A stretch of DNA of 61,308 nucleotides from Mariniblastus sp. GTDB taxonomy: Bacteria > Planctomycetota > Planctomycetia > Pirellulales > Pirellulaceae. The notes below the pieces were generated by a model that was not told the origin of the DNA, made no database searches, and saw only the letters and a program-made list of their open reading frames with translations. Location: the NCBI GenBank assembly GCA_023300235.1, contig JALZWN010000039.1:1-61308 (forward strand), read 5' to 3'. Shown piece after piece: positions 6,281-9,275 of this stretch (position 1 is the first letter of the stretch; the number at the start of each line of letters is the position of its first letter). Both the position numbers and the translations under genes were made by a program.

Positions 6281-6345
6281 AAATGTGGTGATGGGCTTCC
6301 AGCCTGTCATGCGCACAGACAGGCTGGAAGCCCATCTCCACATTT
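6281..6345. repeat. Long hairpin, 28-bp arms, 9-nt loop
   Basis: Left arm 6281-6308 and right arm 6318-6345 are complementary except at one position, with loop atgcgcaca. The core ccagcctgtc/gacaggctgg recurs as a shorter palindrome at 48087-48105. A run of T follows the right arm, so it could also terminate the sulfurtransferase transcript. Confidence 0.9.
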
Positions 6346-7049: not shown

Positions 7050-9275
7050 ATGCTACGAACTTCTCAATTGCTTGCGCTCACGGTTTTGGCAGGAATGCTC
7101 GGGATCGCCATGTATGCTTTTGGTTTCCGAGCTCCCTCGGCCACCGCTCCAGCAAATCCCGTTTTAACAGCGACCGCTCTTTCAAGCCAATCGGGCAGCA
7201 TGGAAGGCGAGTTGACCAGCAAACCGTTCGTGTTAGTCGAATTGTTCACATCCGAAGGTTGCAGCAGTTGCCCCAGTGCGGATCGGAACCTCGAAAAAAT
7301 CGCCGCCCAAGCAAAGGCTACCGGACAAAACATTTACACGCTGTCTTATCACGTCGACTACTGGGACTACCTTGGCTGGAAAGATCCTTATGCGGCCAAG
7401 CAGTTTTCCGACCGACAACGAACCTACGCACAGCAATTCAAGTCTAGCCGAATTTACACACCCCAGATGGTCGTCAACGGTCAAACCGAATTCGTCGGGT
7501 CAAATAAAAAATCTTCTCAGCAAGCCATTGAACGAGCCTTGCAAACGAAAACCAAAACCGCCATCTCAGTAAAGTCGTTCGTCAAAAACAACACCGTTAG
7601 CGTCCACTGGAAAACCGCAGGACTTGGCAAAGACGATCAAGTTCAAATCGCATTGGTGCAGAATACCGGCCAACAAAAAGTGAGCCGCGGCGAAAACGCA
7701 CGCCGCACCCTGACTCACGTTAACGTCGTCCGAGCCCACAAAACGATCGCTTCGCCGGGCGCTCAAGGGCGGCTTGAGTTTTCACTGCCAACCGGTTTGT
7801 CCGCCGAAGATTGCCACGTGTTTGCCTTTGTGCAAACCCCAAAAGCAGTAGCCGCGGCAGCAAAAAGTAAAATCGCTGCCGCAGTCAAGCATGACGATTC
7901 GAACAAAGAAATGTCTTCGACTCCAAACATCAACGGCACCAACAAGTCCACGGTGTATGTCTCCGCTTACAAGCCTCCCACAACTCAATCGCAAACTACC
8001 CAGCCAACGCTCGTTGACGAAGAAACTTTCTTGCTTATGCTTTCGCAAGACAGGCAACTTTTTGCGGTGGGGATCGCCGACGCAAAAAAGAATTGGGACA
8101 TTTCGTATGTTCCGATGCTGCTTGAAGTCGCCCGTTTCTTGCCTAGGTTAGAACGGACACGTGTCATGAGCCTACTGGAAGCCCAAACGGGACAGCGGTT
8201 TGGCCAGGACAACAATAAATGGTTGCAGTGGGTTTGGAAACAAGAATTCAATCCGCACCCCGGCTACGGCAACTTCAAAGCCAAAATTTACCAAGAGCTC
8301 GACCCACGCTTCGCCGAGTACTTTGCTGACACGCAAGACGCCAAAATTCGCTTGGACGAAATCCGCTGGGGAGGCGTCAGACGCGACGGCATCCCTCCTT
8401 TGAAAGATCCCAAGATGCTGACCGCCGGCAAAGCCCGTTACTTGGCCGACAACGACGTCGTTTTTGGCATCGAACTCAACGGCGACGCGAGGGCTTACCC
8501 TAAACGAATCTTGGCTTGGCATGAAATGTTCAAAGACACGATCGGCGGCGAATCCGTCTGTGGCGTTTACTGAACGTTGTGCGGAGCTCTGATCGTGTAT
8601 CAGACAGAAGTCAACGGAACTCACCACGAACTTGGAACCAGCGGTTTTCTTTATCGCTCCAACAAATTGATGTACGACCACGCCACCAAATCGTTTTGGT
8701 CGACCTTGCATGGCGAACCCGTCGTGGGACCATTGGTCGGCAAAGGAATCAAACTCAACCGCCGATACCTCGTGACAACGACGTGGGGTGAGTGGAAGAA
8801 ACGCCACCCCGAAACAACCGTGCTGTCACTGGAAACCGGTCATCGCCGCGACTACGGTGAAGGTGTTGCTTACCACAAATACTTTGCTACTGACAAATTG
8901 ATGTTCACGGTTCCCAAGATCGATACTCGTTTGCTGAACAAGGACCACGTCCTCGCGTTTCGCAACCAAGATGAACAACTCGCCGTCGCCATCAAGTTCT
9001 TAGCGAAGCAGCGAGTTCATCACGACAAGCTTGGCTCGCAAAACATCGTTGTCCTTGCTGACAACGACGGTACCAGTCGTGCTTACGATATCGGTGATGT
9101 GAGATTCGCTTCGTGGAATGGAACCGATCAAGCCATCGATTCGAACGGCGGCAAGTGGACCGTCTTGGAAGACTCATTGGTGTCCTCGGGCAAAAAACTC
9201 AACCGAATGCCATCGCACAACGCGTTCTGGTTCGGCTGGGTTTCCCAGTTCCCGACAACTCGCTTAGTCAAATAG
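7050..9275 (+). CDS. DUF1223-DUF3179 fusion, probable selenoprotein (in-frame TGA read as Sec508)
   Basis: The frame is open over 741 codons except for TGA at 8571-8573 (codon 508). Residues about 5-25 are a signal peptide or anchor. Residues about 58-275 are a DUF1223 thioredoxin-like domain with L-F-T-S-E-G-C71-S-S-C74-P and the H-V-D-Y-W-D-Y-L-G-W-K-D-P signature. A helical linker follows, then DUF3179 from about 450 to the end. The family motif Y-C-x-L-C-G appears as Y507-stop508-T-L-C511-G, so TGA replaces exactly the first cysteine. DUF3179 coding continues smoothly beyond it (G-T-S-G-F-L, L-M-Y-D, G-E-P-V-V-G-P-L). A SECIS-like stem-loop follows the TGA. Start ATG 7050 has an AGG about 9 nt upstream. 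The alternative is a nonsense mutation splitting the gene. No selenocysteine machinery is visible in this window. Confidence 0.75.
8571..8573 (+). other. Candidate UGA selenocysteine codon
   Basis: TGA lies in the same frame as both the upstream 507 codons and the downstream 233 codons. It falls at the position I recall as cysteine in DUF3179 proteins, giving a U-x-x-C redox motif. Confidence 0.7.
8575..8616 (+). promoter_or_regulatory. Candidate bacterial SECIS stem-loop
   Basis: The lower stem cgttg (8575-8579) pairs with caacg (8612-8616). The upper stem tctgat (8588-8593) pairs with atcaga (8599-8604). The apical loop cgtgt (8594-8598) carries G at its second position, as in the bacterial SECIS pattern. 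The loop begins 20 nt after the TGA. The two stems are separated by unpaired internal loops of 8 and 7 nt. Energy has not been computed. Confidence 0.6.

Follow-up and report, generated by a model that had tools for sequence, protein, structure and literature searches.

An in-frame TGA that very probably encodes selenocysteine in a DUF1223-DUF3179 gene of Mariniblastus sp.

We wondered how a single protein might be made from a reading frame that is interrupted by a TGA codon. The frame lies on the forward strand of the window, the whole stretch of 61,308 nucleotides analysed here, at positions 7050-9275. It starts with ATG at 7050, runs for 507 codons to a TGA (8571-8573) and continues for a further 233 codons to a TAG (9273-9275). 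A sequence-only reading of this DNA had proposed that the TGA is decoded as selenocysteine (Sec) to yield a protein of 741 residues; re-reading the frame bore out its description of one dividing TGA, as no other stop was found. Such an arrangement is rare within the window, where, of the 34 TGA-joined frame pairs in the six frames (at least 60 codons per side), this one alone exceeds 200 codons before as well as after the TGA (519 + 233 codons when counted stop to stop). The source genome comprises 4.73 Mb in 311 contigs, and the closest named matches are two uncultured Pirellulaceae MAGs. With the TGA read as Sec508, the translation begins with a hydrophobic stretch (7050-7127) that, judged by eye, is a probable signal or anchor. 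Pfam places a thioredoxin-like DUF1223 domain, on which the sequence-only reading was silent, in the first third of the protein (residues 62-262, 7233-7835, E 3.2e-60) and a DUF3179 domain at its C-terminal end (residues 445-737, 8382-9260).

The TGA falls inside the DUF3179 domain. Across it the Pfam profile is matched without interruption, from position 1 to 292 of 292 (E 1.2e-75), and when the halves are taken singly the part before the TGA matches profile positions 1-61 and the part after it 67-292. The residues flanking the codon read VCGVY-U-TLCG and so contain the U-x-x-C motif that had been suspected, U508-x-x-C511. In an alignment of 145 rows, which includes the window gene twice, position 508 is occupied by Cys in 89 rows and by Sec in 56, that is by one or the other in every row. 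Cys511 (8580-8582), the second residue of the motif, is Cys in 134 rows and Ala in 10, while His491 (8520-8522) is conserved in 139 rows and Asp496 in 141. Translation might in principle stop at the TGA and restart just after it, for example at TTG 8577, from which the second part alone is open for 232 residues. As the break would then lie within one domain and at an invariant Cys, and as those Cys homologues whose frames were read are single proteins, we regard two separate products as very improbable.

We searched 241 genomes of the family for relatives. Among the matches listed were eight loci of the same genus (L132-L139), 59-73% identical to the window gene, and all eight carry TGA at the Sec508 codon with no further stop. 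Two separately found loci, L022 and L023, duplicate L132 and L133, as judged over 300 bases, and were counted once. Among the matches listed, 8/9 same-genus loci of the subfamily thus retain the TGA, with the frame open on either side of it. The other loci examined in the subfamily have Cys at this site without exception (65/65): TGC or TGT is found in all 55 members of a named collection (L024-L078), and a Cys codon in 10/10 further loci (L140-L149), of which nine come from other genera and one, L148, from the same genus. This same-genus Cys copy (genome G507) groups with those of other genera (98/74) and is a possible transfer or paralogue. Compared with the window gene, L132-L139 show a pN/pS of 0.12-0.29 over the 58 codons 5' of the TGA and of 0.20-0.35 3' of it, with dS of 1.7-3.1. 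The low downstream ratio in eight TGA loci indicates that the stretch behind the codon is selected as protein, and coding character and homology accordingly continue across the TGA as the sequence-only reading had described.

Single TGA codons in draft assemblies are commonly errors or mutations, and the gene could therefore be dying, with the downstream part as a remnant. Given that the same TGA recurs in eight other genomes of the genus without other stops, and given the purifying selection downstream and the synonymous constraint at the hairpin described below, a nonsense mutation or sequencing error is extremely improbable. The site is also shared far beyond the genus. A search of the phylum gave a DUF3179 match in 139 of 392 genomes, from whose listed single-TGA matches we sampled 40, leaving out about 15. 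All 40 have the TGA at the Sec site of the family, as [YW]-U-x-x-C in 37 and as U-x-x-A in three, and six distant planctomycete copies have Sec at the same site as well (46/46 overall). We also noticed DUF3179 matches with an in-frame TAG, two in G246:C226 and one in G225:C64, which may be pseudogenes, errors or cases of recoding.

Reading through TGA 8571-8573 would also be expected if Mariniblastus sp. had reassigned TGA to a regular amino acid. This is hardly credible, since TGA closes 12 of the 41 stop-to-stop frames in the window that span at least 200 codons (a count that takes in shadow frames and the Sec508 site itself), only TGA 8571-8573 joins two long frames within the window, and the genome possesses tRNA-Sec together with the dedicated factors. 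The tRNA-Sec gene (contig C278) scored 69.8 bits and was called by ARAGORN as tRNA-SeC with anticodon tca; selA, selB and selD scored 573, 368 and 280 bits, each above its curated cut-off. SelA (460 residues) and SelB (640 residues) are encoded by open frames, and SelD forms the C-terminal part of an open frame of 737 residues (L020 298-2511), whose N-terminal part resembles by eye an NADH-dehydrogenase-type oxidoreductase. Among the eight genomes of the other TGA loci, selA remained below the cut-off in two (G523 and G526) and tRNA-Sec was missing from one (G526, 71% complete). Each component was also found in 8/10 Cys-type genomes. As Cys-type genomes mostly carry the machinery as well, its presence is not discriminating, and we dropped it as a means of telling Sec from Cys genomes.

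If the TGA is recoded, a SECIS element should have left its mark on the codons behind it. We compared synonymous differences between pairs of the nine Sec genes (window and L132-L139), which average 0.57 over 229 codon columns. The minimum, 0.15, lies in an 8-codon stretch from +6 and is the lowest of 203 such stretches; the eight lowest all start within -4 to +7. Nine Cys genes (L140-L148) show no dip at this site, their lowest value being 0.44 and located elsewhere. All nine Sec genes of the clade share CTG, TAT and CAG here without variation, even though five coding stretches of the window use TAT and CAG less often than their synonyms (TAC 46 vs TAT 19; CAA 70 vs CAG 34). The invariant codons pair as CUGAU-CGUGU-AUCAG, with AGUUU as the loop in L132. 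In the window a sixth pair is possible, which gives a putative bacterial SECIS upper hairpin at 8588-8604 with the stem UCUGAU/AUCAGA and the apical loop CGUGU at 8594-8598, 20 nt past the UGA. From established knowledge, SelB carrying Sec-tRNA(Sec) would bind this hairpin and insert Sec at residue 508.

The hairpin was then compared between 55 Sec genes (the window gene, L132-L139, the 40 sampled and the six distant planctomycete copies) and 87 Cys genes. It forms in the fixed register in 37/55 Sec vs 3/87 Cys DUF3179 genes (Fisher 4.5e-17), counts that treat genes singly and, like those of the TGA, overstate independence because the Sec genes are related by descent. Synonymous resampling (2000 draws) gave a mean of 6.7 and a maximum of 17 of the 55; for the clade of the window, in which 9/9 genes have the hairpin, the null mean was 0.9 and 9/9 was reached in none of 20000 draws. 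In shifted registers at most 6/55 Sec genes show it. Standard pairs occupy 260 of the 330 pair cells over the 55 Sec genes, vs a mean of 185 and a maximum of 204 after 1000 shuffles of the 3' letters, and pairs 21-31, 20-32 and 19-33 swap among C-G, G-C, U-A and A-U in the 37 hairpin-forming genes. The loop CGUGU is present in 33/55 Sec vs 3/87 Cys genes; the loop plus the two pairs that close it, ATCGTGTAT, in eight of the nine Sec genes of the clade and 25/55 of all Sec genes vs 0/68 Cys rows. By eye, 14 of the 18 Sec genes that lack the fixed-register hairpin fold with another loop and four show none clearly.

According to the rules given in PMC13188914, a bacterial SECIS has a loop of 3-9 nt, a stem of 4-16 bp, a G in the first two loop positions and a distance of 16-37 nt from the UGA, with all four of which the window hairpin agrees. 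Relative to this consensus its stem is weak and A-U rich, and some orthologues lie outside the published energy limit (-7.5 kcal/mol or lower) in the region tried, namely L137 and L138, which fold above it. Positions +1 to +45 of the window fold at -11.6 kcal/mol, possibly through different pairs, and the hairpin alone at -3.9 kcal/mol; L135, L140, L145, L033 and L060 are omitted from this energy comparison. Folded alone, the window stretch is unexceptional (z 0.11), its minimum free energy structure uses other pairs, and 14% of synonymous draws yield an apical hairpin at least as stable. Rfam returned nothing relevant on the window or on 8500-8700. We therefore dropped single-sequence folding as proof of a SECIS, and the call rests on comparison. 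A TGA kept in relatives, its position at the Cys site of the others and a conserved hairpin 3' of it make a single Sec protein almost certain, and we conclude from these comparisons that this is very probably a genuine selenoprotein gene in which TGA 8571-8573 encodes Sec, as the sequence-only reading had held. None of the three findings which that reading had named as refuting turned up, be it a genome devoid of Sec machinery, homologues without Cys at the site, or other stops or frameshifts in close relatives. Automatic annotation is likely to split the gene at the TGA, and the model given here corrects this.

How did this branch come by its Sec? In a tree built from 105 DUF3179 rows, with long branches and no outgroup, the Sec clade of the window (100/96) is nested in a large Cys group. 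Three changes of the Sec label suffice on this tree, and placing all Sec rows in one clade was rejected (p-AU 4e-44). The own gene of the window (L131) adds one row to the tree, the clade test and the 145-row alignment, and alignment A2 was made without L097, which has an internal stop, and L053. At +6, Leu is found in 9/9 Sec genes and 0/68 Cys homologues of the subfamily; at +10, Gln is found in 9/9 and 1/68, respectively. The simplest reading of these sequences is a local Cys-to-Sec conversion: the subfamily would have been ancestrally Cys, one Pirellulaceae genus would have switched from Cys to Sec, and the SECIS would have been built in place, its stem at the cost of two altered residues (Leu at +6, Gln at +10). 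The branch of the window thus seems to have acquired Sec independently of other DUF3179 selenoproteins. Alternatively, Sec might be ancestral in DUF3179, the Cys forms being repeated losses and no recent conversion having occurred; indeed, distant planctomycete branches also have Sec, in the same register and often with the same loop. Since Cys rows surround the Sec clade, three label changes on the unrooted tree stand against about a dozen separate losses along the path to this clade if there was no gain, and we consider an ancestral Sec unlikely. Gene conversion over a short tract, with another Sec copy as donor, would also explain the Sec of the clade, and is less likely than the local Cys-to-Sec conversion. 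With nine Sec genes of one genus set against Cys relatives, the local conversion offers a clear natural case of Cys-to-Sec exchange, in which the SECIS is visible as lost synonymous freedom plus two residue changes.

DUF3179 is a family of unknown function that is seldom named in the open-access literature searched. The sequence-only reading knew of no described DUF3179 selenoprotein. Here it has to be amended, as both PMC9312934 and PMC13188914 tabulate DUF3179 with the motif UxxC/T as a known prokaryotic selenoprotein family; both tables credit Zhang and Gladyshev 2007, the Olavius algarvensis paper. We therefore dropped the idea of a new selenoprotein family. With its PF11376 domain and Sec in UxxC/T, the window gene fits the tabulated one: it belongs to the same Pfam family as the 2007 selenoproteins and, going by the motif in print, has Sec at the same position. 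By description it is set apart from them through its GVY-U-TLCG subfamily and its N-terminal DUF1223 domain, and in the tree it forms a Sec branch separate from other DUF3179 selenoproteins. The Cys-type relatives (L024-L078 and L140-L149), which come from Pirellulaceae, Flavobacteriaceae, Verrucomicrobiota and others, are 43-63% identical over the matched part and have the same domain and motif; they differ in that they have a Cys codon in place of the UGA, rarely a hairpin in register, and no DUF1223 within the flanks examined. Planctomycete selenoproteins were reported earlier (PMC4807772). In the open-access literature searched we found no paper that deals with DUF3179 together with Planctomycetes or Rieske proteins and, by title among the papers listed, no selenoprotein survey of Planctomycetota. 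What we add is modest: a separate Cys-to-Sec conversion in one Pirellulaceae genus, the fusion to DUF1223, and Sec at the same site in 46/46 further planctomycete TGA copies.

The fusion appears to be peculiar to this gene. Among the matches listed, which cover 101 of the 241 family genomes, DUF1223 and DUF3179 share one frame only in the window gene and are separate matches otherwise. A scan of 105 DUF3179 loci with flanks of up to 3 kb found DUF1223 only in L131, the own locus of the window, and no other DUF1223 fusion was recognised by eye in 12 long-frame DUF3179 loci. The proteins of L132 and L133 have an N-terminal segment of their own, without DUF1223. A chimeric assembly might conceivably be the source of the fusion. 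No hydrophobic segment was seen by eye in the linker between the domains. None of the neighbouring genes (rhodanese, DUF547, MMPL-like) recurs in the 105 loci besides L131, apart from weak MMPL matches in L034 (E 2.6e-8, 20-26% identity). Between the rhodanese gene and the Sec gene the window holds an inverted repeat of 28 nt (6281-6345), 96% complementary with a 9-nt gap, both strands of which read MGFQPV....DRLEA; there is one such place in the window.

DUF1223 (PF06764) is assigned to the thioredoxin-like clan (PMC3091736), and the window protein has in common with DUF1223 proteins such as that of PDB 2axo a CxxC thioredoxin-like domain. Its C71-S-S-C74 motif (7260-7271) is invariant in a 13-row DUF1223 alignment. 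The top Foldseek match of the DUF1223 part was 2axo (E 6.9e-9), obtained on a region modelled with low confidence; AlphaFold modelled the DUF3179 domain well (305 residues, mean pLDDT 90.4) and the DUF1223 part poorly in the 741-residue model. As for the DUF3179 site, the 10 rows with Ala at position 511 mean that the partner Cys is not always present. These forms (CPLA, UPLA and UPVA in L105, L108-L110, L127, L129, L130, L174, L175 and L179) retain the first Cys or Sec, which consequently looks essential. We infer that residue 508 does the work with 511 as its partner, and the fixed Sec site in many planctomycete DUF3179 genes likewise points to the first Cys as the working residue. The product would be an exported protein of 741 residues with two redox sites, C71-x-x-C74 in DUF1223 and U508-x-x-C511 in DUF3179. 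We tentatively propose an envelope thiol/selenol oxidoreductase, a possibility to which we give somewhat less than even weight, in which Sec508 would be the attacking residue, Cys511 would resolve it, and the DUF1223 domain would exchange electrons with the Sec508/Cys511 site. Such an electron relay between the two redox sites is plausible given the thioredoxin-like clan of DUF1223 and its C71-S-S-C74 motif.

We also explored a bolder idea, in which DUF3179 would be a remodelled Rieske-type fold whose cluster loops had turned into a His/Sec/Cys site. In this Pirellulaceae genus the residue standing where the second motif has its Cys ligand would then have been newly exchanged for Sec, with a SECIS built in place, and in this species a thioredoxin-like domain would have been added as electron partner. 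The spacing H-x16-U-x-x-C of the window equals the H-x16-C-x-x-H of a Rieske protein from the same genome (L214), and ranks 1-13 of the Foldseek matches of DUF3179 to the PDB are Rieske oxygenases (best E 0.002, TMq about 0.2); the match to 3c0d_C had a probability of 0.97, a TMt of 0.54 and an E of 0.12. None of the 781 PDB matches fell below E 0.001. The Rieske ligands C-x-H...C-x-x-H are not preserved in the window, which reads A489-W-H491-x16-U508-x-x-C511, the first Cys being absent and the last His replaced by Cys. Comparison of 35 DUF3179 with 24 Rieske rows by hhalign gave a probability of 0.7% (E 0.08), and 0.3% in a second run, both without a positive control and no better than unrelated DUF1223 pairs (0.3% and 0.2%). 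A Pfam scan of 33 DUF3179 rows found no Rieske family, and the DUF3179 profile had no match among PDB sequences up to E 10. Rieske homology was not supported by profile comparison and was kept as a weak fold lead only, and the composite idea is unlikely.

Two further observations concern the DUF3179 unit. The uncharacterised BFVD entry A0A1V0SD44 from the giant virus Indivirus ILV1 matched the DUF3179 model in Foldseek with E 2.2e-8, TMt 0.63 and 9% identity. Judged by eye, the reverse strand of L210 (G165:C23) has two DUF3179-like units in one frame, the first with Sec (UMVC) and the second with an altered motif.
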